Assembly (NCBI GenBank): GCA_017405875.1
Contig: JAFQZM010000031.1
Span: 1 to 64,000, forward strand
Direction of reading: 5' to 3'
Source: a bacterium
GTDB taxonomy: Bacteria; UBP6; UBA1177
DNA: 64,000 bases
The notes beneath the pieces were generated by a model that was not told the DNA's origin, ran no database searches, and saw only the letters and a program-made list of their open reading frames with translations. This document shows, piece by piece, positions 11,753 through 40,209 of the stretch (the stretch's first letter is position 1; each line of letters begins with the position of its first letter). The position numbers and the translations under genes are program-made.

Positions 11753-11876
11753 GGAATTTCGTGAAAAATCGTCCAAAAACAGCCGGAATTTTGTGATAAA
11801 ATTATAAAAAATAACTGGAATTTTGTGAAAATTATGGTAAAAACTGCCAGAATTTTGTGATGGAGTTGCGTAAATG
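11753..11876 (+). repeat. 32-bp tandem repeat array upstream of an ATPase gene
   Basis: Three full units (11753, 11785, 11817) and a partial fourth (11849) begin with GGAATTTYGTGA and keep an exact 32-bp period. The last unit runs into the ribosome binding site and start codon of the ATPase. The conserved core alternates with A+T-rich spacer, as expected for repeated protein-binding sites. Confidence 0.85.
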
Positions 11877-13229
11877 ACGGAAATACTTCATAGAAAAATT
11901 GATGATTTTCTTCTTGAATGGAAAAAGAATCCGGAAAGGCTTCCGCTTATTGTTAAGGGGGCACGTCAGGTAGGAAAAACTTTCTCGATCAGACATTTTG
12001 CCGCAACTTATAAATACTTTGTCGAGATAAATTTTATCGAGGAGCCGAAATACAAAAATATTTTTTCCGGTGGCTATTCGCCCGATGCGGTCATAAAGGA
12101 AATAAGTTTCATAAATCCCGCTTTTAAGTTTGTTCCGAAAGAGACTTTGATTTTTTTCGACGAGATGCAGGCCTGTCCCGACTGCGCCACTTGCCTGAAA
12201 TTCTTCAAGATTGACGGGCGTTATGACGTGATCTGCTCGGGATCAATGCTCGGAATAAACTACAATGAAGTGACTTCCGTCAGTGTCGGCTACAAAAAGG
12301 ATTTAGAGATGCATTCTCTCGATTTCGAGGAATTTCTTTGGGCGAAAGGCTTCGGAAAAGATCAGATTGCAACGATTTTCCAACACATGAAAAATATTGA
12401 GCCTTTCAATCAGAACGAATACTCAGTGTGGCAGGAAAACTTTACTGAATATATGACTCTCGGAGGCATGCCTGCGGTTATCAGGATGTTTGCAGAGCAG
12501 AAAAACTTCTCAGGCACTCTTGAAGCGCAAAGGCAGATCCTTGCCGCCTACAAAGAGGATATAACAAAATATGCAGCAGGTCTTGACAAAGGAAAAATCG
12601 CCAATGTTTACGACAACATATCTGTTTTTCTAGCAAAAGAGAACAAAAAATATCAGGTGTCGAAAATCGCGACGGGAGCGAGAAACCGCGAGTATGCCGG
12701 AACGGTCGAATGGCTCCGAGATGCCGGAATAATCAATATCTGCCACTGTCTTGAAACACCGGAACTGCCGCTGAAAGGCAACTACAAGGCGAACGATTTC
12801 AAAATTTATTTCCGCGACACGGGGCTTTTGATTGCTTCACTTGACGAGGAAGCCCAGGAGGATCTGCGCCGGAACAAAAATTTCAATATATACAAAGGTG
12901 CGGTTTATGAAAATATCATCGGCGACATGCTCGTCAAGCAGGGATACGAACTTTTTTACTACAAAGACGAAAAATCGACTGTCGAGATGGATTTCTTCGT
13001 GCGCGATGCCGATTCCCTTGTTCCTGTCGAAGTCAAAGCGCAGGACAGCGCGACTGCTTCATTGAATAAACTCATTGAAAAAGAAAAGTATCACGACATA
13101 AAATACGGCATCAAATTCTGCGGCGGAAACATTGGATTCAACGGAAAATTCTACACCTTCCCGCATTTCTGCGCCCTTTTGCTGAAAAAATGGATTTTTG
13201 AGACTAAAATCTCGTCGGATGTAAATTAA
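11874..13229 (+). CDS. AAA_14/DUF4143 family ATPase
   Basis: 451 residues. The N-terminal ATPase domain has Walker A GARQVGKT (about 29-36) and Walker B TLIFFDEMQ. The C-terminal DUF4143 half ends in a PD-(D/E)XK-like pattern, VEMDFFVRDADSLVPVEVKA, with the Asp and Glu-x-Lys in place. Proteins of this family are very common in anaerobes and their role is not established. The gene, with its upstream 32-bp repeats, is bracketed by 44-bp direct repeats, so it looks like an inserted cassette. A second family member lies at 53216-54493. Confidence 0.88.
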   Translation: MTEILHRKIDDFLLEWKKNPERLPLIVKGARQVGKTFSIRHFAATYKYFVEINFIEEPKYKNIFSGGYSPDAVIKEISFINPAFKFVPKETLIFFDEMQACPDCATCLKFFKIDGRYDVICSGSMLGINYNEVTSVSVGYKKDLEMHSLDFEEFLWAKGFGKDQIATIFQHMKNIEPFNQNEYSVWQENFTEYMTLGGMPAVIRMFAEQKNFSGTLEAQRQILAAYKEDITKYAAGLDKGKIANVYDNISVFLAKENKKYQVSKIATGARNREYAGTVEWLRDAGIINICHCLETPELPLKGNYKANDFKIYFRDTGLLIASLDEEAQEDLRRNKNFNIYKGAVYENIIGDMLVKQGYELFYYKDEKSTVEMDFFVRDADSLVPVEVKAQDSATASLNKLIEKEKYHDIKYGIKFCGGNIGFNGKFYTFPHFCALLLKKWIFETKISSDVN

Positions 13230-15527: not shown

Positions 15528-15602
15528 GCGGGAATAACTCAGTGGTAGAGTGCTACCTTGCCAAGGTAGACGTCGCGGGTCCGAATCCCGTTTCCCGCTC
15601 CA
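15528..15602 (+). tRNA. tRNA-Gly (anticodon GCC)
   Basis: Complete cloverleaf, acceptor GCGGGAA/TTCCCGC, anticodon loop TTGCCAA, CCA encoded. First gene of a Gly-Cys-Leu cluster in the order of E. coli glyW-cysT-leuZ. Confidence 0.97.
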
Positions 15603-15639
15603 TTTTTTTATGTCCTTTTTCAATCGAAATCCTTTGGTC

Positions 15640-15713
15640 GGCACCTTAGCCAAGAGGTAAGGCAGAGGTCTGCAAAATCTCCATCTCCGGTTCGAATCCG
15701 GAAGGTGCCTCCA
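15640..15713 (+). tRNA. tRNA-Cys (anticodon GCA)
   Basis: Cloverleaf with acceptor GGCACCT/AGGTGCC, anticodon loop CTGCAAA and encoded CCA. Confidence 0.96.
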
Positions 15714-15730
15714 TTTTCAAACTCATAACC

Positions 15731-15818
15731 GCCGGAGTGGCGGAATTGGTAGACGCAAGGGACTTAAAATCCCTCGGGATAACCTCCTGTACCGGTTCGA
15801 GCCCGGTCTCCGGCACCA
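15731..15818 (+). tRNA. tRNA-Leu (anticodon TAA)
   Basis: Class II cloverleaf of 88 nt with a long variable arm, acceptor GCCGGAG/CTCCGGC, anticodon loop CTTAAAA and CCA. Its 3' end marks the left edge of the accessory island, but I see no copy of it at the other side. Confidence 0.96.
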
Positions 15819-15955
15819 TTTACAGAACTTCGCAACAAGAATTTAACACCGTTTGCTGTTTTGTGCAGAAATCGCAAAATTTTTTTCGTCAAAAACCGCA
15901 CTTTCCGCAAAATTTATCCCAGATATTTAAGAAAAAACTCGAAATTTTTCTATTT

Positions 15956-15998
15956 TTTGTCAACTCGTTCCGTTTGCCGCCACTTATATATAGCGTGA
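15956..15998 (+). promoter_or_regulatory. Island promoter element A
   Basis: TTTGTCAACT, 17 bases, then CTTATATATAGCGTGA. One of five copies of a shared element found only at operon starts between 15.9 and 38.6 kb. The first gene begins about 100 bp downstream. The distance from TTGTCA to the TATA run is too long for a standard sigma-70 promoter. Confidence 0.7.
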
Positions 15999-16096
15999 AG
16001 GTTCTTTGCAGACCGATCAATTAGTCAACAATATGTTGATTTTTCTGAATTTTGCAGGTATTTTCGGCTGCTCATTGAACGATACGGAGGAATTAA

Positions 16097-18577
16097 ATGG
16101 ATCAGATATCAAGACTCAAAGCGGATTTCAAACGTGAAATACTAACATGTTTCCCTAAAAAAGCGCAGCAGGAAGGATCTGGAATACCATTGGGAACAAT
16201 TCTGCACAATATCGGCCATGCGAAAGCTGATATCAAACGAGCTTTTCCGCAGTACGAAATTCCTGAAAGCGACCGCAAAAACGAGAACAATAAATTCGAC
16301 TGGACGAAATTTTTCGCGGAACAGCTTCCTGAATTTACAGTAACTCACGAAAGATGGAAAGATGGAAAAAAAACAGATGTTTTAAGATACAATTATAAAT
16401 CAACAAACAACGACAAAGAGGAGGAACAAACTATGACAACCCAAACAGTTGAACAAACAGAAACAATCACCCCCGTCGACAAAACGAATCTGCCGAACAG
16501 AATCAAAACTCTGCTCAAATATTTGAACCAGAACCTTTACGGAAAGGAGGAAGCTGTCCGTCTCGCGCTTCTTTCCGCTGTTGCAGGCGAAAGTATTTTC
16601 TTTATCGGACTTCCTGGAACTGCAAAAAGCATGATCAGCCGACGGATTGCAGCTGCATTCAGCGATTTTTACAAGGACGGCAAGTTCAACACAGAAAACG
16701 GGGGATATTTTGAATATCTGATGAACGAATTTTCAACTCCAGATGAAATATGCGGTCCGGTCGATCTTTCGGCACTCAATGAAACACCGAGCCGCTATAC
16801 CCGCCAGACAAAAGGCTATCTTCCGAGCGCGAAAGTCGCATTTCTGGATGAAATCTGGAAAAGCGGTCCTGCAATCCTGAACACTCTTCTTACCATTGTA
16901 AACGAAAGGATTTTCCACAACGGAAGCGAAATCGAGAAAGTGCCTCTCATATCTCTCGCAGCGGCATCCAACGAACTTCCAGAGAAAAACCGCGGTCTTG
17001 AGGCGCTTTGGGACAGATTCATCCTGCGTGTATCGGTAAATCCGGTTTCAAAGGAAGAAGATTTTTTCAAAGTCGTAGATGACGGAAATACAGAAGTTAT
17101 ATCCACGGCAGAACTCACGGAAGTTCTTTTAAGCACCGCCGATGTCGAAAGCTGGCAACCGGAAATCAACAAAATAGAGCTCAGTAGTGAAGCAAAAAAT
17201 GTAATCACCGCTATCAGAAAAGAACTCACGTCATATAACAAAGACACAAAACACCAAGGTGACGAAAACTATTATATCTCTGACCGCCGCTGGAAAAAAA
17301 TAGTTCATCTCCTTAAAACAAGTGCGTTTCTTAACGGACGCGATTCTGTTGATCTTATGGACTGTTCACTTATTGAATACTGCATCTGGAATACCGACAA
17401 ACAGCAGAGTGAAGTTGGTAAAATTATTGAAAAAATCCTCGATCAGCATGGAATAACAGGTGTCGGGAACTCAATCGGCGATATTGTCGACAAGATTGAC
17501 GAATTCAAAGAAGCAGTTAACGAGAAATGGTTTGAGCATATTGTTGTGAAAGCTGTGGCAGCAAAACCCAAGCCTTATAAAATGAAAAATGGGACTTCTG
17601 CTTATAAGTTAATTTCACCAAAACAAATTCAAAGTTATAACTCTATAACACCCACATTTATCTCAGAACAATATCATCATCCTAATTATAATAGATTCGG
17701 GGCATATTTTACTTCAGATGGAGAGTTAATTGGAGATTACGACTATTATGTTAAAGAATTTAAACTTCAAGGAAACAAGGCTTGTTGGAAAGATGGATAT
17801 CGAGGTTATAACTATGAATTTGAAATTGAAACGACAACAGCTGTTCCTGCAAAAGATAAATGGGAACTCAAATTTTTTGAACCAGTTGCCAAAAAAACCA
17901 TAATGGAAGCCTTCGATAAAAAAGAATATATACCGCTTGCCAATCGGATCGATTCTGAAATCGCTGACTTGCAAAAATTCCGTGATGACAGTGCTGCTCC
18001 GTTTGAATCGAATGCTTTTGCTAAGCAGCGTTTCAGCGGGATCCTTTTGCAGCGGATTGATGACATAATACTTGATTTGAAAAAGAAAAAAGATGAACTT
18101 GAATCTCTCCGCACCAATTATGCAACGGACAAAAACATAGAATCAAAATTCGAGCTTTGCGATGCTATTATGAAAGACGGTACTTATAAGAATGCAAATG
18201 AGCAGAAAGACAACGAAAACATTCTTGCAAAAGTATGTCTAAAAGGCGATCGTGAAAATGTCGCTTTTGGCATGGCATGGGAAAACTTTGACAAGATGAA
18301 TTTTGATACGGCAAACAAATATGTTTCAAAATACGGCAAGGATTTTCCTGCACCCTATGATTCTGGCTGGATGCTTCCGACGATAGAACAATGGCAGCAG
18401 ATTTATGAAAATTCTCACAAGAAAAACGATTTTGATTTGTCTGGAAAATATTGGTCATCATCTAAGGATAAAAAACAGGGCGGTGTCTGGTATTTTAATT
18501 TTGATACCGGTGAAAAAGAGTGTACTTTGCCGTCGAACCAATATGGAATTGCTATCATCCGCAAACTGGCGCTGTAA
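16097..18577 (+). CDS. MoxR/RavA-type AAA+ ATPase with N-terminal wHTH-like and C-terminal Lcl-like domains
   Basis: 826 residues. Residues 1-105 look like an OST-HTH/LOTUS-type winged helix (IPLGTILHNIGHAKADIKRA, then KFFAEQLPEFTV), a fold usually linked to RNA binding; this call is tentative. The AAA+ core follows, with Walker A GLPGTAKS (171-178), Walker B FLDE (249-252) and RavA-like NERIFHNG and SDRRWKKIVHLLKTSAFLNG stretches. A coiled region precedes a C-terminal DUF1566-like lectin fold (GWMLPTIEQWQQIY, KYWSSS, VWYFNFDTGE). It pairs with the vWA gene immediately downstream, as RavA does with ViaA. A perfect AGGAGG before Met113 suggests a second, shorter product. Confidence 0.85.
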   Translation: MDQISRLKADFKREILTCFPKKAQQEGSGIPLGTILHNIGHAKADIKRAFPQYEIPESDRKNENNKFDWTKFFAEQLPEFTVTHERWKDGKKTDVLRYNYKSTNNDKEEEQTMTTQTVEQTETITPVDKTNLPNRIKTLLKYLNQNLYGKEEAVRLALLSAVAGESIFFIGLPGTAKSMISRRIAAAFSDFYKDGKFNTENGGYFEYLMNEFSTPDEICGPVDLSALNETPSRYTRQTKGYLPSAKVAFLDEIWKSGPAILNTLLTIVNERIFHNGSEIEKVPLISLAAASNELPEKNRGLEALWDRFILRVSVNPVSKEEDFFKVVDDGNTEVISTAELTEVLLSTADVESWQPEINKIELSSEAKNVITAIRKELTSYNKDTKHQGDENYYISDRRWKKIVHLLKTSAFLNGRDSVDLMDCSLIEYCIWNTDKQQSEVGKIIEKILDQHGITGVGNSIGDIVDKIDEFKEAVNEKWFEHIVVKAVAAKPKPYKMKNGTSAYKLISPKQIQSYNSITPTFISEQYHHPNYNRFGAYFTSDGELIGDYDYYVKEFKLQGNKACWKDGYRGYNYEFEIETTTAVPAKDKWELKFFEPVAKKTIMEAFDKKEYIPLANRIDSEIADLQKFRDDSAAPFESNAFAKQRFSGILLQRIDDIILDLKKKKDELESLRTNYATDKNIESKFELCDAIMKDGTYKNANEQKDNENILAKVCLKGDRENVAFGMAWENFDKMNFDTANKYVSKYGKDFPAPYDSGWMLPTIEQWQQIYENSHKKNDFDLSGKYWSSSKDKKQGGVWYFNFDTGEKECTLPSNQYGIAIIRKLAL
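16419..16435 (+). promoter_or_regulatory. Internal Shine-Dalgarno and start codon inside the RavA-like gene
   Basis: AGGAGG at 16419-16424 lies 8 bases before an in-frame ATG at 16433, exactly where the N-terminal wHTH-like domain ends and the ATPase begins. It is the best ribosome binding site of the gene. Confidence 0.55.
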
Positions 18578-18580
18578 ATT

Positions 18581-20617
18581 ATGATGAAACAAATTTCAGA
18601 TAAATCGCTGCATTTCAGCCATGTGGCATTAAAAGATCTTGAAGAAATTCTTAACGAAAAGCCCAATCTTCCGCAAATAAGCAAGATGAGTCAAAAGGAC
18701 ATCCGTTCTTTAAAAGACCAGATGAGGGGATTTTTCGAAGATGTAAAAAAGATCGGCTATAAAAATTTTTCATTTTTAGCTGACTGCAAGGATGTAAGAG
18801 ATTTTTTAGCCCACACAACAGGCGATATTTCAAATGAAGAGATTTTTGAGAACTTTAAAACATTCTTCAGCTTTGCAGACAAGGCAAAATCGGAACTCGA
18901 AGCCAATATCCGGCGGGCTTATTCCCAAAATAAGGAAATCCGCAAGTTCGAGAAATTCGGCTCATCAAATTTCGGTAATGAAATCGAGCGTAAAGCATTG
19001 ACTCAAAGCCTTGCCGACGCTTTTGACAATTCCATCGAAGATTCGGAAAAGCTGCCTTTTTCCAAAAATCAGGCGGCACAGGAAGCTGAAAAATTCCTGA
19101 GAACTGAAAATCAGGAGCAGAAAGAACTCCTTGATTTTGCTGCAAGTCATTCCCGGTTAAGCCAGCAGATTCAGGAAGAAATTCTCAAAACGCTGCAAAC
19201 TGCCTATGATGAAACAGAGATAACAAATCCCAAAAATCCGTTTTATGATGAGAATCTCTTTCTGCACAAAATGAATCAGCTTTCAGATGAGGAACTGCTT
19301 TCAACTCTTGCGGAACAAAAAAAGGAACTTAATAAAACCAAAACAGGCAAAAATAGTTCAGCAGACTTCGGTTTTTATGCAAAACAGTATGAAAAACTGA
19401 TTGAACCGGAGGAAAAAGAACCGGAAAAGAAAAAAAGCAAAGAATCAAAGCCGAAGAAAATCGATCCGCATGAACTTGAAATCCTTTCCCGAAATTTGAA
19501 AAAAGATCTGAACACTTCGCTGCACGAGCGTTACCTGGCATGGCAGCTTGAAGAGATAGACAAAAAAAGGAAAAAATATCTCAAAGAACTGTATGAAAAA
19601 ATCGCGCAGTTTAAGAAACTTGAGGAGCTTCTTTCGCCTTTCATCAGGAATTTCGGACGTTTATGGGATCTTTCAAAAACAGACTTCAACGATTACGGTT
19701 TTGATATCCTGAAAATGAAAGAATTTGCCGAACTGCTTAAAAACGACAAATCCCTGCAGGAACTGGCAGATTTGATAGGCAGACAGAACGGAGAGACCGA
19801 GCGTTATGAAAAAGAGCTGCGTGAAAAAATAGATATAAAAACAGAATTTCATCCGAAACCGGCATACCGCGGGCAAATTTCGGGAATACGCCTGAGCGGA
19901 GAAATTTCATCAGCCCTGCCCAGTGCGCTTGCCATGTCTGCTAATCCGAAGACAAAACCCTATTTCAACCTGCAAGTTACAGAAAAAAAACTACCTTCAT
20001 ACTCATACACCAACAGGCAGAAGTTTTACCGCGAAGAACGCGGAACAGAAGAAGTTGAAGTTCCGGTAAAAGAAAAGGAGCAGAAAGGTCCTGTCATCAT
20101 CTGCGTCGATACAAGCGGTTCGATGAACGGAACTCCCGAGCGCGTGGCAAAAACTATAACGTTCGCTCTTGCAAAAAAATGCTTGGAAGAAGAGCGCAAA
20201 TGTTATCTGATTTCATTTTCGACCGGAATCGAAGTGCAGGATTTGTCCGAATTTGAAAAAGGCAGCGGATTGCTTGAATTAGCAAAGTTTCTGCGAAAAT
20301 CTTTCAACGGCGGAACCGATGCAGAACCGGCTTTGCAGCATTCTCTGGCACTTTTACAGAAGAACGACTGGAAAAACGCCGATGTTCTTGTTGTAAGTGA
20401 TATGGTCATGGGAAATTTGTCGGAATCTGTTAAAACAAGCATCAAATCACAGCAGGTGAAAGAAACAAAATTCTACTCCCTGCTCGTGGGCAATTCGGGC
20501 AATAAAAACGTCATCGAAGTTTTTGATGAAAACTGGAGCTACGACATCAATTCGCGAGACGCAATGCGGCATTTAGTCAGACAGACTCACAAGCTGAATG
20601 AAATAAATAAGAACTAA
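18581..20617 (+). CDS. vWA-domain partner of the RavA-like ATPase (ViaA-like)
   Basis: 678 residues. A long, charged, largely helical N-terminal part (about 1-470) leads into a C-terminal von Willebrand A domain. The MIDAS motif DTSGSMNG starts at Asp510, with GGTDAEPAL and VVSDMVMG supplying the other metal ligands. This layout matches ViaA-type proteins that bind RavA/MoxR ATPases. The gene starts 4 bases after its ATPase partner, so they are cotranscribed. MoxR-vWA pairs act as chaperone-like machines and have also been found in predicted counter-invader systems. Here the island context favours the latter, as inference. Confidence 0.88.
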   Translation: MMKQISDKSLHFSHVALKDLEEILNEKPNLPQISKMSQKDIRSLKDQMRGFFEDVKKIGYKNFSFLADCKDVRDFLAHTTGDISNEEIFENFKTFFSFADKAKSELEANIRRAYSQNKEIRKFEKFGSSNFGNEIERKALTQSLADAFDNSIEDSEKLPFSKNQAAQEAEKFLRTENQEQKELLDFAASHSRLSQQIQEEILKTLQTAYDETEITNPKNPFYDENLFLHKMNQLSDEELLSTLAEQKKELNKTKTGKNSSADFGFYAKQYEKLIEPEEKEPEKKKSKESKPKKIDPHELEILSRNLKKDLNTSLHERYLAWQLEEIDKKRKKYLKELYEKIAQFKKLEELLSPFIRNFGRLWDLSKTDFNDYGFDILKMKEFAELLKNDKSLQELADLIGRQNGETERYEKELREKIDIKTEFHPKPAYRGQISGIRLSGEISSALPSALAMSANPKTKPYFNLQVTEKKLPSYSYTNRQKFYREERGTEEVEVPVKEKEQKGPVIICVDTSGSMNGTPERVAKTITFALAKKCLEEERKCYLISFSTGIEVQDLSEFEKGSGLLELAKFLRKSFNGGTDAEPALQHSLALLQKNDWKNADVLVVSDMVMGNLSESVKTSIKSQQVKETKFYSLLVGNSGNKNVIEVFDENWSYDINSRDAMRHLVRQTHKLNEINKN

Positions 20618-20699
20618 TCAGCTTTCCCAAAAAATTTGTCAAAAATCTCTTCTTCTTTAAAATTACGCAGTTTTTTAATCACTTTTTACGAGGTTGGAG

Positions 20700-21557
20700 A
20701 TGAGCGACAACAATTCGGGAGAAAAAAAGATTTTTTCCGGCAAGGAAATGCGTGACCGTATTGAAACTGTTCTTGCCTTTTTAAACCGTAATCTGCGAGG
20801 CAGAGAGGAAGCAATCAACCTTTCGCTGCTTTCGGCTGTTGCTGCGGAAGACATTATTCTTTCCGGAAGATCCGACAACGACAAAAAACTTATTCAGTTC
20901 TCTATCCAAAGTGCGTTTAAAGATTATTACAGCCATGATCAGTTTGCCCCCCGGTCGTCAGAATACGGCATTGATTCTTTATTCCGTATGGAAAACTCGT
21001 CGGAAGCAGATCCCTATAAAGCTGCGGAAAATAATGAAGATTGGGTCCTTAATGTCGAGGTAAAACCGGTTTCGGATGACGACGATTTTTTCAACTTCGT
21101 AAACAGTCCCAGCTTCGAGACAATCCCGAATCCCGATAAAGAACAAAAAGCCGCACTGCTTACAATAAAGGAAGTAAAAGAGTGGCAGCCGGTAATCGAC
21201 AGGGTCGAACTGAGCGAAGAAGCCAAAAGTGTCATTTCAGAAATCAGAAGAAAGTGCTTCGAGTTCTATGTAAGTGACTCCCGCTGGAAAAGAATCGTCC
21301 ATGTTCTCAAAACCTGCGCTTTCCTGAACGGCAGAAGCAAAGTCGATCTCATCGACTGTCTGCTTATCGACTACGCGATCCCGAACCGTTTTGTCGAAGA
21401 GATTCTGAAACGGCATGCAGTTGAGAGCAAACTGGACGGCAAACAGCACGCACAATACAAAGCAAACATATTTACACGCCAGAAATACTACGAAATCCTC
21501 AAGGCTTCCATCGACGATAAAAAACTCGAATTGGAACACAAGAAAAAGTTGTACTAA
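20700..21557 (+). CDS. RavA-like pseudo-ATPase (AAA+ core deleted)
   Basis: 285 residues, clearly homologous to the RavA-like protein at 16097: RIETVLAFLNRNLRGREEAI matches RIKTLLKYLNQNLYGKEEAV, and VSDSRWKRIVHVLKTCAFLN matches its lid region. The Walker A position reads SGRSDNDKK instead of GLPGTAKS. The segment carrying Walker B and the sensors is missing without loss of frame. It cannot be a normal ATPase and is more likely a regulatory or structural subunit of the same complex. Start chosen at ATG 20700 with GAGG upstream; an in-frame TTG at 20694 is less likely. Confidence 0.82.
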   Translation: MSDNNSGEKKIFSGKEMRDRIETVLAFLNRNLRGREEAINLSLLSAVAAEDIILSGRSDNDKKLIQFSIQSAFKDYYSHDQFAPRSSEYGIDSLFRMENSSEADPYKAAENNEDWVLNVEVKPVSDDDDFFNFVNSPSFETIPNPDKEQKAALLTIKEVKEWQPVIDRVELSEEAKSVISEIRRKCFEFYVSDSRWKRIVHVLKTCAFLNGRSKVDLIDCLLIDYAIPNRFVEEILKRHAVESKLDGKQHAQYKANIFTRQKYYEILKASIDDKKLELEHKKKLY

Positions 21558-35200: not shown

Positions 35201-35402
35201 GATAGACTTCATCGCAGATGAAAAACGTCTAAATGTATCGCTGTCGAGAGCAAAAAAGCTCTTGATCATCGTGGGTGACATGGACTTTCTTTATCAAGCC
35301 AAAGTCTCCGACAAAAATAATCCGTTCGAAAACATTATCGAATATATCAACCAAAACAAAGAGTCTTATGAAGTGATCAAGTTGGGAGAAAAACATGACT
35401 GA
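32205..35402 (+). CDS. Protein kinase-like domain fused to a superfamily 1 (Upf1/Dna2-like) helicase
   Basis: 1065 residues. Residues 1-270 resemble a Ser/Thr protein kinase: the DFG motif (Asp136) is intact, but the catalytic loop reads HGNINPKN (116-123), with Asn where the catalytic Asp of HRDLKPEN should be. It may be a pseudokinase. After a coiled, charged linker the helicase starts near 560, with Walker A GPPGTGKT (609-616), SQSNQAVDNVL, DEAGRATLSEL (motif II), GDHKQLAPV (III), the late VDSFQGSDRDIIIYD (V) and LNVSLSRAKKLLIIVGD (VI). It overlaps the PLD gene by 8 bases, so the two products probably work together, as helicase-nuclease pairs do in anti-phage systems. Confidence 0.87.
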   Translation: MTKILGKYEIISEESGTLKIARYNDCDYRIEIVPKTSASGKYSNIAKNINLVSHQNISNLKIEEDDRNFYFVDKNFDEGYSELKPEWFGSNYVSLIKCYQQIVDAVEYIHQKGFYHGNINPKNILIDREDHAYLLDFGRCYIYAMMNGSPDKRFYAPEQRALNECRKESDIYSLGLCMLDLLLESHFDSFKFSETYKDFDSLEEIYRCIAEHEEQLDKTNAELLIIIKAMLNADPEERIKLLDVRRKLNDLLREIMPNKTFGIQIGGRVLEKWRENHDCEQYVEKEDIRERIEDYRAYLEFGKDKSDRDEIKIAIGDLTFCCSAKENSHYFFCFGILESPSKTELLQKYGLPTDDMFKILGPNEHDWSCDDAGSVIEKLKERYEQKKRENERYETDSKSIATEEELLKAEKRTIDEKKNTRKVILKELNRGDDTLTLEYIIDKDENKSENYTTENTRENIPSEKDFKQKQDVLLQENLKSDEVLKGVVERSESGFSVTVKVGKYEVAKYADDQKKEFHLEKGAEYFLSYDYQAEEAVWTKKDCALYQLQNGNVYIHNFLRKINRPQEFIKNDLIDVEKFYNTSLDENQQLAVRKALSLDDKCELMVLQGPPGTGKTVTITEIVTQLLKTRPHEKILVASQSNQAVDNVLEKICGIEDKILRIGNDETKISKTAQNYLPHKVLNKIIQDNIKRIDGNSVSHTNEGIQNKMTELQKDFREQLQHITSQMGNNSKNGETNKETELAALFTQNIRLVFGTLIGISSWKSFREIVFDTVIVDEAGRATLSELLVPCIKARKLILVGDHKQLAPVIDDDVLEKIKDRDEAKTSFFQRVFERIQNADRPNLLHTLNHNYRSESRICDLYNIPFYNGELKTTDAVNAQKKHSLSFRSSVVWYDTGMLPDKEDEQEGTGKINRCNASVIEKTLRRIQTEMKNCGMNYDIGIITPYKAQAAALRKKLAVKKNFAECSIEIGTVDSFQGSDRDIIIYDCVRSGKLKGKAKIDFIADEKRLNVSLSRAKKLLIIVGDMDFLYQAKVSDKNNPFENIIEYINQNKESYEVIKLGEKHD

Positions 35403-36729
35403 AAAACAAAACAGTGCCATTAAACCGGATCTTGAGCTGCTTACCCACAGATACAGCGACCATTACGAAGGGTTTGCGATGTATGACGCCCGTGAAATAG
35501 ACTACCCTGTATACAGAACAAAAGTGATGTATGCGGTAACAAAAGAACGGAAGATCCACCCGGTGATCATATCCGTGTTGAAGACCATACATTTCCTTGA
35601 AACGCTCAAAGACGAGGATTCCTATTCATATCTGCAGAATATCTCTCAGCTGGACGAAGAGATCTTGGACACTATTCTGGCAGACATCACGACAAAGGGT
35701 TATCTGAAGCAGAATGATATAAGACAGGAAGAACTGAAGCTTTCCAAAGAGGGAAAAGAGATCCTGGAAAAAGAAACGGAGCTGGTTACGGAAAACGCTT
35801 CTTCCTGGCTCTATTTTGACGGAATATTCGGAACTGTTTTGGAGGACACTGAGAAGTTGGATCAAAAGTCAAGAGAGGGTGCCATAGAATTCAAACCCTA
35901 TGTGAAATCGCGACCGAGAACGGAATGTCTGGACGACGACTTCTCCGACAATAAAACCCTCAGGCAGGTCATTATAGAAAATCTGCAGGATGGTAACGAC
36001 ATAACGGATATATTTGAAGTTGCACCCGGCAAGTTCTTCCGCAGACATATCTGTTTGTTCTATAAAGATGAAGAGACAAATGAAAAGTTTCTGGTCCTCA
36101 ACAAAGATTACGAAGAGGATTTCCGAGCCACGCAACTGTTTGACCGTATTCTAAACGAACAGAAATTCGACTACGAAAATATTTCACCGAACAGCGTGAA
36201 AATATTTGAAGAAAACATTGAGAAATTTAATAACACGACCCCTGAAATCATTAAAGAAAAAATCCAGCCGATAGAGGAAGTCTCCATTTCTGACGGTAAA
36301 ACCATCGAGGTTGACGAACACAAAAAATACTTCATCTATGTTTTTGAAAATGCCAGAAACAGCATCTATATCCAGTCTCCGTGGATAAACTGGAAGACTC
36401 TTCGACTCTACAAAGAATATATTCAGAATGCCGTTAAAAAAGGAGTAAAAGTAACCGTAAAATACGGCATGAAACCTCGAAACAGGTTTGATAAAATCAT
36501 TGACAAAGAATCGCAGAAATTTTTTGACTCTCTTGGCAAAGACAACTTCCGCCTGATAAAAACTGATGACCACTCCAAGATCGTGATCTGCGATGATGAG
36601 TTCATGATAATGGGAAGTTTCAACTGGTTTAGCTTCGGCGGCGGAAACGAACCTGATGCACGCGGCGAAACATCGACGATCAACATGAATAAAGATGAGA
36701 TTTTAAAGCAGATTGAAAAATTCAACTGA
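35395..36729 (+). CDS. Phospholipase D-family nuclease partner of the helicase
   Basis: 444 residues. The C-terminal 140 residues contain a single PLD motif: HSKIVICD gives HxKx4D with His393, Lys395 and Asp400, then MIMGSFNW. One HKD motif per chain implies a dimeric nuclease such as those in DISARM-like and restriction-type systems. The N-terminal 280 residues are unassigned, with an early stretch that could be a winged helix (LSKEGKEILEKE). Transcription follows element D through the helicase gene. Confidence 0.83.
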   Translation: MTEKQNSAIKPDLELLTHRYSDHYEGFAMYDAREIDYPVYRTKVMYAVTKERKIHPVIISVLKTIHFLETLKDEDSYSYLQNISQLDEEILDTILADITTKGYLKQNDIRQEELKLSKEGKEILEKETELVTENASSWLYFDGIFGTVLEDTEKLDQKSREGAIEFKPYVKSRPRTECLDDDFSDNKTLRQVIIENLQDGNDITDIFEVAPGKFFRRHICLFYKDEETNEKFLVLNKDYEEDFRATQLFDRILNEQKFDYENISPNSVKIFEENIEKFNNTTPEIIKEKIQPIEEVSISDGKTIEVDEHKKYFIYVFENARNSIYIQSPWINWKTLRLYKEYIQNAVKKGVKVTVKYGMKPRNRFDKIIDKESQKFFDSLGKDNFRLIKTDDHSKIVICDDEFMIMGSFNWFSFGGGNEPDARGETSTINMNKDEILKQIEKFN

Positions 36730-36739
36730 CTCTTTCTGC

Positions 36740-38488
36740 TTATTGCCAACCCCTTGTCTTTTTGATGCATTCACTCAAATATTTACAGCAGTCGATGGTT
36801 TTCTTCTTATAGTCATCGGTCAAAAGGATATCGTTGTTGTGCTGATATGTGTTTCTTGCCTTTCTCAAATGATCTGTCCTTTTAGTGAATTCTTTGTAAT
36901 CACCGAATATTTCGCACAATTTGAGCTTGTCATATTCAACTTCATAAAGAGAAAACAATCCTTTAGTGTATATTGATTCGAGAATAGAGATCTCGGCTCC
37001 GTGCTTTATATCCTGAGATTTTCTCATATTCTCTTTCAGTTTTTCCGCTTCTCTCAAGTCATAGGAAAGCAGATACTGTTTTTTTGTATAAGTTTTATCT
37101 TGATAGCAGTACTTTTCTGCATTTTTTCTCGCAATATTGTTCGGAAAGAAATAATCCTGCAAAATTGCCATAATATTTTCAGGATTTCTCAAAATATACA
37201 TACGGAGAATCATATTTTCCCAATGTTCCTCTGTATATTCCCTTTTCAATCTGAATTTCAAAATCCTTCTCATTCCGGTCTCGGTATCGTGCCAAAGCGG
37301 GAAGAAATTGACATCCCGCTCTTTCATTTTCATGTATTCATACAGTTTTCCGGATATAATTTGCGGCTTCTCTTTATCGTCAATGATTCCGTAATCATAT
37401 AACGTGTCAATATCAACCTGCGTGCAGTTTTCATCCATCGGCCCGAAAACTATCTGATAGAGCTTGTTTTTCAGGTCTTCTCCGAGTGCATCAAGCGTCT
37501 TTTCAAATTCCGGATATATAATTTTTGCTTTTTCCCTGAATATTGTCTCCATATCCGTGTTTTTACCGCGGTCTTTTGCCGCTTTGTATGCCGCCAGAAT
37601 AATATCCAACCAATACGGATGACCTCCGGCGATACATTTAAGAAGAGCCCGTTCTTCGTAGCCCAATTGGATTTCGTTATGTCTGTAATAATCAAGCAGC
37701 TCTCTGTCGGAAAATCCGCGAAGACACAATATGTTGCCTCCGATAAAATTCAACTCTTTTATCGGAATTTCCGAGACAAAAACGAATGTGATTCCGTATT
37801 TTTCATCTGTCGCCAACTTTTTGAAAACGGCGAAAAGTCCGGAATATTTTTCCAACAGTTTCGATGAGTTATAAAATTCATCTATAATGCAGACCACTCT
37901 TTTCCCCGATTTTTTTATCGTCTCAAAGAATTTGCAGAAAGCAGCATCTCCGTTTTTTTCAATATTTTCCATGCGGATCTGCTCCTTCAACTGAAAAACA
38001 TCACTGCAATCATTCCAAAAACCTGCATGGCTTTCGATAATATTACAGATTACTTCCACAATATTTTTGAAAAGAACGTCCGCAGAATCAAACACGCTGG
38101 CAGATATTTTGACCACAATAATATTTTTAGAGTAATATTCGTCAGTTTTAGCCTCAAGAACATTGTGAACAAGAGAGGATTTCCCGATTTTCCTCATTCC
38201 GACCAAATTTACGGAACGGCAGTTGTCAACCGTTTGCTCCAATAATTTCTGCTCTATTTCGTCTCTGTGGATATAAGCTCTTCCTTTCATAATATTGCCG
38301 ATATTTTTCAAGCGGTTTACTCTCGAAACAGAAACTTCTTCGGGAATTTCTTCGTTTTCGGATTTAAATAATTTAGAAACAGCATATGCTCCCAATCCGA
38401 TTGCTCCGGCAATACCTAAACCTGTCGCCCACTTTTGACCGGTAGACATGCCTTTTTTATCATTTCCTGTTTTCTTCCAGTCCGTCAT
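36740..38488 (-). CDS. Membrane-anchored AAA ATPase with C-terminal HEPN-like RNase motif
   Basis: 582 residues. A single transmembrane helix (about 20-40, Gly/Ala-rich) follows a short basic N-terminus. The ATPase domain has Walker A GMRKIGKSS (97-105) and Walker B VVCIIDEF, of the STAND/archaeal-ATPase type. The last 40 residues contain RKARNTYQH, i.e. R545-N546-x3-H550, the RNxxxH signature of HEPN ribonucleases. This layout (sensor ATPase plus toxic RNase) is common in abortive-infection proteins. It runs convergently to the PLD gene and divergently from element E. AGGAGG precedes the ATG. Confidence 0.82.
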   Translation of the reverse strand: MTDWKKTGNDKKGMSTGQKWATGLGIAGAIGLGAYAVSKLFKSENEEIPEEVSVSRVNRLKNIGNIMKGRAYIHRDEIEQKLLEQTVDNCRSVNLVGMRKIGKSSLVHNVLEAKTDEYYSKNIIVVKISASVFDSADVLFKNIVEVICNIIESHAGFWNDCSDVFQLKEQIRMENIEKNGDAAFCKFFETIKKSGKRVVCIIDEFYNSSKLLEKYSGLFAVFKKLATDEKYGITFVFVSEIPIKELNFIGGNILCLRGFSDRELLDYYRHNEIQLGYEERALLKCIAGGHPYWLDIILAAYKAAKDRGKNTDMETIFREKAKIIYPEFEKTLDALGEDLKNKLYQIVFGPMDENCTQVDIDTLYDYGIIDDKEKPQIISGKLYEYMKMKERDVNFFPLWHDTETGMRRILKFRLKREYTEEHWENMILRMYILRNPENIMAILQDYFFPNNIARKNAEKYCYQDKTYTKKQYLLSYDLREAEKLKENMRKSQDIKHGAEISILESIYTKGLFSLYEVEYDKLKLCEIFGDYKEFTKRTDHLRKARNTYQHNNDILLTDDYKKKTIDCCKYLSECIKKTRGWQ

Positions 38489-38552
38489 TTAATCCTCCTG
38501 TTCCGTGAACCAACCGCTTTAAAGCCAAAAAAATTAAAAAAAAAGAGAAATT

Positions 38553-38594
38553 TTTGTCAACTTATCTGTTTTTCGCCGCTTATATATAGCGTGA
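38553..38594 (+). promoter_or_regulatory. Island promoter element E (before the CARF/sigma pair)
   Basis: TTTGTCAACT, 16 bases, CTTATATATAGCGTGA, then CAGTTCTTT. From the CTTA box to the GTGA it is identical to element A. It lies 77 bp before the CARF-like gene, so the putative sigma factor would control its own operon. Confidence 0.7.
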
Positions 38595-38670
38595 ACAGTT
38601 CTTTTATTTGCGAAAATTTAGCAAACTTATAAAACTTACCAGATTTATTTGTCTAGTTGAGGTAAACAAA

Positions 38671-39303
38671 ATGAAAAAGATCCTATTCGTAACACTCCAG
38701 TTAAAAAAAATGAGCGATGATGACAAACGTATTTATCCCGTCAACGGCAACACTTTGCTTGAAATCAATGAACCGATATACTTTGCAGCAACAGCAGCCA
38801 TTGTCAGTACTCTGAAAACAGATGACGAAGTTAAAGTTGTTCTTGTTAAAACCGAAGGTGGAGAAAATGCCGGAGATGAAAATGCAAAACTTTTTAGGGA
38901 AGAGCTTGATCATTTTAACAAAGCGATCGGCGCCAATATCAGCTATAAAATCATTTCAGGCCCGTTTGATCTTTCACAAACTAATTTTAAACACATTTTC
39001 AAAGACCTGCTCAACGAACTTGAACATAATGCTGAAATTTATGCGGATATAACCTTCGGACCGAGAACTCTTCCGCTTCTGCTTTTCCCGATCTTCCAGT
39101 TCGCTGAGAAATTTTTTGATAATTCCATAAGTTACATCGTTTATGCAAAAGTCGAATTCGATGAAAACAAAAAAATCATCGCCGGTTCGGAAATGATTTA
39201 CGACATCACTCCGCTCTATCTCATGAACAGTTTTACCAATCTGATTGAAACCTCCAGCAGTGAACGCGCAATAAAAGCAATCGAAGCATTGTTTAAGGAT
39301 TAA
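38671..39303 (+). CDS. CARF-like (CRISPR-associated Rossmann fold) domain protein
   Basis: 210 residues. The chain opens with strand KKILFVTLQ. It then has YADITFGPRTLPLLLFPIFQ (from Tyr124) and ends SEMIYDITPLYLMNSF. This arrangement matches CARF domains of the TM1812/Csx1 type, where a DITHGFR-like turn helps bind cyclic oligoadenylate or a similar ligand. No effector domain is attached, so it is probably a pure sensor or a regulator of its partner. Three bases separate it from the sigma-like gene. No CRISPR array or cas gene is visible in the window. Start at ATG 38671, behind GTTGAGG. Confidence 0.72.
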   Translation: MKKILFVTLQLKKMSDDDKRIYPVNGNTLLEINEPIYFAATAAIVSTLKTDDEVKVVLVKTEGGENAGDENAKLFREELDHFNKAIGANISYKIISGPFDLSQTNFKHIFKDLLNELEHNAEIYADITFGPRTLPLLLFPIFQFAEKFFDNSISYIVYAKVEFDENKKIIAGSEMIYDITPLYLMNSFTNLIETSSSERAIKAIEALFKD

Positions 39304-39306
39304 AGT

Positions 39307-40209
39307 ATGAGGTATGAAGATCAATACAACAGCATAAACAGGCGTTATTCCGAATACGCAGAAGCTGTCAATTCAGAGATCTCTGAAAAAGCAAAAGAAG
39401 GAATGGCGTGGAAAATCAACGAAGAAGTATTGAAATTAAAATACCGAAAATACCGCAGAGAAATCAGTTATGGAGAATATTTTGAAGAGGTTGTCAACAA
39501 GGTTAAAGTTTGTCTGAAATCTTATCTCAAAAAAACTCAGACATATAAAGACAAAGTGCCTTTCAGCCAATATGTTTGCAGCGGAATAAACAATATGATC
39601 GGTTCGCTTCTAAAAAAACAGACTTTAGAAGAGAAAAACGGCGGGATCACCATCTCCGATCACACTCAAAAAATGGTCAGCAAGCTAAAGAAAATTCTTA
39701 ATAATTTAGAAATAACGTGCCCTGATTTAGACGGAGAATCGTGTGTTGAAATAGCGGCCAAAATGCTGGGTGTAAAAAGAAATACCGTTATACGTTATCT
39801 GCAGATTATGACTGGTGGTGAAAGAGTTGATGAAGAAAAAGTAGCAGAGACGAAAAAAGCGGCATCGCCGGAAAAAGAATATGATTTACGTAAAGAACCG
39901 ATCAAAAAACTTCGTAAAATAGACGCTGAATGGATTAGAAAACCCGACAAGATGCTTTCTGAGCTGCTTACAGTTTGCGTGCTGGATATGTGCGAGATGG
40001 AAAAAGACGATTATTTTGATTACGATTTTATAGACCGCACTATTTTAGATGATTACTTTGCTCAAAAGAACTATAGATTTCCTGAAGCGCAGGAAATTGC
40101 TGAAAAATACGGCTATACAGACAAATCAGCCGCAACACAGAAACTTAAAAGATTCGGGAAAAAAATAGGAATCGAATTCAAATATCCACGCCAGTCAAAA
40201 AAGTTTTAA
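39307..40209 (+). CDS. Sigma-70-family-like transcription factor
   Basis: 300 residues, basic, no signal peptide. The segment VPFSQYVCSGINNMIGSLLK looks like sigma region 2.3-2.4. CVEIAAKMLGVKRNTVIRYL is a first helix-turn-helix (region 3-like). AQEIAEKYGYTDKSAATQKL, followed by KRFGKKIG, is a second at the C-terminus (region 4-like). It is the direct operon partner of the CARF-like protein. Its assignment as an alternative sigma factor rests on this pattern. A non-sigma DNA-binding regulator with two HTH units is the alternative. It is the best candidate to recognise the TTTGTCAACT-N16-CTTATA element. Confidence 0.55.
   Translation: MRYEDQYNSINRRYSEYAEAVNSEISEKAKEGMAWKINEEVLKLKYRKYRREISYGEYFEEVVNKVKVCLKSYLKKTQTYKDKVPFSQYVCSGINNMIGSLLKKQTLEEKNGGITISDHTQKMVSKLKKILNNLEITCPDLDGESCVEIAAKMLGVKRNTVIRYLQIMTGGERVDEEKVAETKKAASPEKEYDLRKEPIKKLRKIDAEWIRKPDKMLSELLTVCVLDMCEMEKDDYFDYDFIDRTILDDYFAQKNYRFPEAQEIAEKYGYTDKSAATQKLKRFGKKIGIEFKYPRQSKKF

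Follow-up and report, generated by a model that had tools for sequence, protein, structure and literature searches.

A RavA-type ATPase with added head and tail domains, and its HEPN-bearing ViaA-like partner, suggest a little-known bacterial self-defence machine

The gene at 16097-18577 in the window, as we call the whole 64,000-nucleotide stretch of bacterial DNA analysed here, encodes what we consider somewhat probable to be the motor of a RavA-ViaA-type MoxR-vWA conflict system resembling abortive infection, with a HEPN domain as its effector. RavA and ViaA are known to work together as chaperones, but the sequence of this locus points to a bacterial self-defence machine of a little-known kind and away from an ordinary chaperone. 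This reading draws on an apparently complete RavA core with a head that resembles a winged helix and a tail of the DUF1566 type, on a ViaA-like neighbour with an intact MIDAS and the HEPN motif Rx4H, on the co-occurrence of head or tail with HEPN, and on CARF genes near many RavA genes. We infer that RavA may control an RNase, that the tail may act in sensing and that the CARF gene may have a part in the system.

The gene is a single open frame of 826 codons on the forward strand with a Shine-Dalgarno-like GGAGGA upstream, and it is a real ORF (Table 1). The window lies on contig C24 of a 2.5 Mb genome (G000) from a small phylum, with 28 genomes in the comparison set. In the encoded protein, Pfam places bpMoxR at residues 135-331 (1.6e-47) and AAA_lid_8 at residues 368-444, and the NCBIfam RavA model matches residues 130-454 (3.5e-87) with 293.5 bits against an equivalog cut-off of 681; by these profiles the protein is a relative of the RavA equivalog, outside its membership. 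The predicted model over residues 128-666 matches residues 3-497 of E. coli RavA (3nbx) with a Z score of 22.8, an rmsd of 4.2 and 293 aligned residues. Mean pLDDT of the model is 60.9 and poor outside parts of the core. As modelled, the RavA core is complete, comprising the MoxR AAA+ domain with its lid and the triple-helix/LARA region. Since residues 128-666 already account for all of E. coli RavA, the head (1-112) and the tail (677-826) are true additions, as the first-pass annotation had proposed in describing a RavA AAA+ core extended at both ends. The genus relatives L083, L086 and L087 encode the core alone, beginning near the equivalent of Met113 and stopping at about residue 676. That annotation thus stands in its three-part layout, its DUF1566-type tail and, probably, its winged-helix head; its idea of a hypervariable tail is unsupported, and it had overlooked both the HEPN domain on the adjacent vWA protein and the link to CARF genes.

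Table 1. Features of the RavA-ViaA locus and related genes, in order of position in the window
Feature	Position	Strand	Basis or remark
tRNA-Gly, tRNA-Cys, tRNA-Leu cluster	15528..15818	+	RavA-ViaA pair (about 15830-20622) at the cluster's 3' end
Head (residues 1-112) of RavA-like protein: winged helix probable, OST-HTH kinship possible	16097..16432	+	Model topology, OST-HTH profile, absence in core-only genus relatives
Internal ATG (Met113) behind a Shine-Dalgarno-like GAGGAGG, probably the ancestral start	16421..16435	+	Sequence; like arrangement in headed RavA
Complete RavA core (as modelled), residues 113-676: bpMoxR AAA+, lid, triple-helix and LARA-like insert; Walker A GLPGTAKS	16433..18124	+	Pfam, NCBIfam, 3nbx structure match
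Tail, residues 677-826, DUF1566/Lcl_C-type domain	18125..18574	+	Pfam, profile-profile
ViaA-like vWA protein, 678 aa; MIDAS DTSGS...T...D intact	18581..20617	+	NCBIfam PRK10997 2.1e-71, VWA_2 8.6e-10; vWA fold 499-669
HEPN-type N-terminal domain of ViaA-like protein, residues 1-112; R73-D-F-L-A-H78 ending helix 3	18581..18916	+	Motif alignment, Pfam, model, hhalign
Gutted RavA paralogue without Walker A or most of the AAA core but with its lid; genus-conserved	20694..21557	+	Family profiles, relatives
CARF-domain protein, homologue of CARF gene near treponemal RavA	38671..39303	+	PADLOC CARF2--CARF 1.4e-69; 38% identity, 1.3e-43
Homologue of treponemal gene between CARF and RavA, C-terminal HTH-like	39307..40209	+	hhalign Prob 87.4; controls 0.2, 0.8

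The candidate effector is carried by the neighbouring ViaA-like protein, which reaches 241.6 bits with PRK10997 against a cut-off of 500; a ViaA match stands beside RavA in 48 of 51 loci, the window counted. Its N-terminal domain looks like a HEPN-type domain and putative RNase. The Rx4-6H motif of HEPN domains appears here in its Rx4H form, R73-DFLA-H78, and in an alignment of 21 such domains (the window and 20 relatives) H78 is present in all, R73 in 19 and N74 in 20, the window having D at the latter position. HEPN families head the Pfam matches among these 21 members (HEPN_Swt1 in 8, HEPN_MAE_28990 in 4, HEPN_RiboL-PSP in 2), with the window sequence alone falling below the Pfam cut-off (18.1 vs 27.5), and hhalign against 16 treponemal HEPN_Swt1 domains gave Prob 90.8 and E 1.2e-6, compared with 0.3 for the control. 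The model of the domain is a helical bundle (helices 7-26, 38-58, 70-78 and 85-112; block pLDDT 80-93 beyond residue 10). In HEPN domains as PMC3710099 describes them the motif ends helix 3, and in the window it closes the model helix 70-78. A PDB profile search with the HEPN alignment returned nothing relevant (best E 0.047), and only vWA domains were among the matches listed for the ViaA model by Foldseek and VIA-align, so that the HEPN part is barely tested by fold. In 12 treponemal loci RavA and ViaA are separated by a free-standing HEPN-like ORF of 94-108 aa, whose motif is degenerate in L147. The nearest relative, L083, has no head, tail or HEPN domain; its ViaA shows an in-frame gap after the first codons, which are kept, and is under purifying selection (dN/dS 0.135 vs the window).

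The head is probably a winged helix, to judge from a model in which helices 2-26, 32-39, 43-49 and 69-76 and a hairpin (79-88/91-101) follow a winged-helix-like order at block pLDDT 46-71. The first-pass annotation had gone further and likened this region to OST-HTH/LOTUS domains, a kinship that is possible. For the window head, one search found no Pfam family at E<=5 and another gave a single stray match at 0.16. The OST-HTH profile scores it at 6.1 bits, a value reached by 1 of 500 shuffles and 2 of 913 real 112-aa pieces, which suggests a kinship above chance yet weak. Scored against a profile built from 22 treponemal OST-HTH domains, 5 of 11 heads reach at least 4.8 bits, as against 2 of 913 control pieces; the heads of L081, L137 and L142 score within the shuffled range. 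Only 1 of the 11 matches Pfam OST-HTH (E 0.0097), and the window head has no OST-HTH Pfam match. Profile-profile comparison with OST-HTH domains by hhalign gave Prob 7.5 with all heads together, 11.3 with the window head alone and 10.5 when it was left out (controls 0.1-0.3), and 0.2-0.3 for the long-head subset; the OST set excluded L186 and L190, and control row L217 (OST or HEPN) was dropped as broken. Aligned with the other heads by hhalign, the window head gave Prob 0.4, a value too low to support its homology to them, and a PDB profile search with the head alignment found nothing relevant (best E 0.22). A head is present on 11 of 51 RavA proteins by a profile built with these very heads, and the window head's own score with it is circular, being part of the training set. 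In L141 an unfused head ORF precedes RavA. At the head-core border an ATG with a Shine-Dalgarno-like sequence occurs in 7 of the 11 headed RavA genes, the window counted, and a headless form may therefore also arise: Met113 is likely the ancestral start, and a headless isoform initiated there is possible.

The additions to RavA and the HEPN domain of ViaA tend to be found together. A head and/or an Lcl/FGE tail is present in 19 of 20 loci with HEPN and in 0 of 31 without it, L085, with its degenerate HEPN, being counted among the latter; this contrast is inflated because the loci are related, and on a tree of the 51 cores head/tail and HEPN agree in 5 of 5 independent pairs (p 0.0625). The exceptions are L143, which has HEPN and neither head nor tail, and L139, which has a CBM48 tail and no HEPN. 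The locus sample came from a 51-row listing, as 40 rows plus four more (L082 twice, L084 and L089) with seven rows left out, and the count of 51 loci omits L148, a duplicate of L090, and the second RavA of L083. Three genus relatives keep a core-only RavA with a HEPN-less ViaA, and the core is therefore of some use without HEPN.

The RavA-ViaA pair occupies 4.8 kb between tRNA-Leu and the gutted RavA, and the site is empty in G010 (39 bp) and G006 (48 bp). The third gene (20694-21557) matches only AAA_lid_8 and a bpMoxR remnant in Pfam; its dN/dS is 0.15-0.24 against three relatives and 1.16 against the nearly identical copy in G010. In L081 a gene resembling the gutted RavA also has an Lcl tail. 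Of the 20 HEPN loci, 13 have a CARF gene close to RavA, while none of the 31 others does, over unequal flanks (56 to 6008 bases upstream across loci, the second RavA of L083 apart). It is mostly upstream of RavA with a gene of about 300 aa in between, and on the opposite side in L145; the CARF gene of L081 matches a CARF model at 5.9e-88. The window's own CARF pair is 20 kb from RavA, outside its operon. The stretch 35395-40209 of the window resembles a defence cluster, with a PLD/MkoB-like gene (2.2e-54), an AAA_35 ATPase with RNTYQH near its end, and the CARF and HTH-like genes. Six loci have Abi_2-like genes nearby; among them L088 and L139 lack HEPN. No PADLOC model matched RavA or ViaA. 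At 11874-13229 of the window an AAA_14/DUF4143 protein matches the PADLOC candidate PDC-S01 (1.9e-149). Cas10 was considered as a signal source and set aside on a weak test: its palm had no match in 8 of 19 genomes, the window's included, and was above the cut-off in 2 of 19, but the E. coli control also matched.

The tail is, by profile, a DUF1566/Lcl_C relative, in agreement with the first-pass annotation. Pfam Lcl_C covers residues 728-819 at 1.2e-5, with 25.9 bits against a gathering cut-off of 34.9, and a profile of 14 RavA tails aligned with 18 same-genome Lcl_C domains over 99 columns (hhalign Prob 96.5, E 7.7e-10). Structure prediction of the two ends, which that annotation had called for, gave a winged-helix-like head and a tail with pLDDT mostly below 50, in which the lectin fold is not directly visible. 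G000 holds 132 Lcl_C (DUF1566) matches in its 2.5 Mb, a strong expansion, so that the raw material for a tail fusion was at hand. An Lcl tail is found in 14 of 51 RavA loci, the window counted, including L082 in a shifted frame; in this treponemal MAG (L082:5983-8108) RavA and the Lcl tail lie in different frames, a frameshift or an assembly error. An FGE-sulfatase domain (1.3e-43) in L084 and a CBM_48 domain in L139 take the place that Lcl has in the others, and the C-terminal slot is therefore exchangeable. With such modules in the same slot of relatives, a role for the tail as the recognition part of the machine is possible.

Since DUF1566 domains are targets of diversity-generating retroelements (DGRs) in G000 itself, and C-type lectin targets of DGRs are known in MoxR-vWA systems according to PMC10907252, the tail might be imagined as a DGR-diversified receptor, hypervariable and recognising changing antigens in the manner of published ternary systems with FGS/CLec targets. 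The data make this very improbable. Both reverse transcriptases of G000 belong to canonical DGRs, and mismatches in these fall at template adenines in 16 of 16 and 21 of 21 cases. The RavA tail has an identity of 0.38 to either template, within the range of shuffles (up to 0.44) and far from true variable repeats (VRs; 0.84-0.88), and blastn found no match of the tail to either. Among seven genomes tested, the three that bear tails (L081, L082 and L084) have no reverse transcriptase, and two of the other four have one. Across 14 tails the VR-equivalent segment has an entropy of 1.10 bits compared with 1.43 in the rest of the tail, and is thus better conserved; tail dN/dS is 0.08-0.21 in four pairs. 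(From alignment A1, two misaligned lipoprotein fragments and the second RavA of L083 had been dropped.) DGR-made hypervariability of the tail, a suggestion of the first-pass annotation that an alignment of orthologues was to settle, is accordingly rejected. The two DGRs lie outside the window, on G000:C14 (L099) and G000:C46 (L100), each with a DUF1566 lipoprotein target, a reverse transcriptase and a template; by eye, the N-terminal part of the targets is vWA-like and a neighbouring gene Avd-like.

Two further explanations deserve more weight. The pair could be a chaperone like that of E. coli, serving a membrane or respiratory enzyme, with head and tail as client docking modules and HEPN as a non-catalytic helical adaptor. 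The full RavA core, the intact MIDAS of ViaA and the purifying selection on the HEPN-less ViaA of L083 all agree with such a function; conservation of Rx4H in the HEPN domain, the way HEPN presence tracks head and tail, and the CARF and Abi_2 neighbours of relatives speak against it, and we consider it unlikely. It is still less probable that the locus is a mobile toxin-antidote cassette at a tRNA site, devoted mainly to its own upkeep, with HEPN as toxin and either the RavA-ViaA core or the gutted RavA as antidote. The 4.8 kb stretch missing in G010 and G006, the small separate HEPN ORFs of 12 loci and a patchy distribution would suit a cassette, but the ORF list shows no integrase in the inserted stretch, the operon exceeds the usual size of toxin-antidote pairs, and the CARF linkage points to signal-driven regulation. 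For the conflict-system reading, we counted the HEPN motif, the co-occurrence with head and tail, the CARF and Abi_2-like neighbours, and the tRNA position with its empty site in two relatives. Counted against it were the distance of the window's CARF pair, the D in place of N after R, the retention of core-only RavA, the exceptions L143 and L139, the mere five tree pairs, the unequal flanks and the lack of a PADLOC model.

If the locus is a conflict system, RavA would form a hexamer that holds the HEPN-bearing ViaA inactive. The head, binding nucleic acid or protein, and the tail, a lectin-fold module that would bind or oligomerise and for which FGE-type or CBM48 domains can substitute, may sense or dock the target, and the CARF protein with its HTH-like partner could set expression or activity through a nucleotide signal. 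Remodelling driven by ATP would then release or pair the HEPN domains, which in that state would cut RNA and stop growth. More tentatively, and with rather less confidence than we place in the motor and effector roles, the elements may form a new immune system. Its CARF gene would supply the sensor and be accompanied by an HTH-like gene. The RavA-type AAA+ ring would bind nucleic acid through its head and have a tail, lectin-fold or carbohydrate-binding, that can be exchanged, and the vWA partner would bear a fused HEPN RNase with a second copy encoded next to it. A nucleotide signal or a bound ligand would then cause the ring to unleash the RNase.

Several known systems share parts of this arrangement. 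Csx1/Csm6 are ribonucleases that combine CARF and HEPN, and the window would likewise place a CARF sensor and a HEPN RNase in one proposed pathway, although here CARF and HEPN belong to different proteins and an AAA+ ring stands between the two. E. coli RavA-ViaA shares the whole RavA fold over residues 128-666 and the ViaA neighbour, whereas the window RavA has a head and a tail, the window ViaA has HEPN, and both fall below the equivalog cut-offs. Kaur et al. (2020, PMC7159879) describe MoxR-vWA pairs as devices that restrain effectors, which are carried on the vWA protein, and cite RavA-ViaA as a complex-assembly pair. With the ternary systems described there the window shares bpMoxR, an adjoining vWA gene, an effector-like domain on the vWA protein and, in one relative, an FGE lectin fold. 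It differs in belonging to the RavA/ViaA clade, in a vWA protein without a Pfam propeller match, in carrying the lectin domain on the MoxR protein and in having a gutted RavA as third gene, the known third components of those systems being VMAP, iSTAND, FtsH or a beta-propeller; its effector is HEPN, which the main text of PMC7159879 mentions only in a reference title. The effector domain is also N-terminal in the window and typically C-terminal according to PMC8195603. The vWA-MoxR-VMAP systems linked to CARF near type III CRISPR (PMC10910872) likewise have a CARF gene near a MoxR-vWA pair; the window differs in its RavA/ViaA with HEPN, in that no VMAP was recognised by a search without VMAP- or iSTAND-specific models, and in the unmatched Cas10 palm of its genome. 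The tail shares its family, by profile, with the C-terminal domain of Legionella Lcl (DUF1566), which is a surface adhesin according to PMC11162425, while the window tail is on an ATPase without a signal peptide and below the Pfam cut-off. A literature search for RavA with HEPN gave, among the matches listed, no title on the subject except PMC7159879, and among the matches listed by searches on HEPN/vWA/MoxR, CARF/MoxR/vWA/RavA, MoxR/C-type lectin/Treponema and CARF/ViaA/RavA/HEPN/DUF1566 the combination was not found in print.

A lectin-fold tail need not be a DGR target, even in a genome with canonical DGRs. The locus would also offer an AAA+ ring with a C-terminal slot that swaps DUF1566, FGE-type and CBM48 modules. 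Through its RNase-type domain and its CARF neighbours, a RavA-ViaA branch of this kind would connect the pair with antiviral signalling, and its HEPN-bearing members would make it possible to test directly how an effector is held and released by MoxR-vWA rings.
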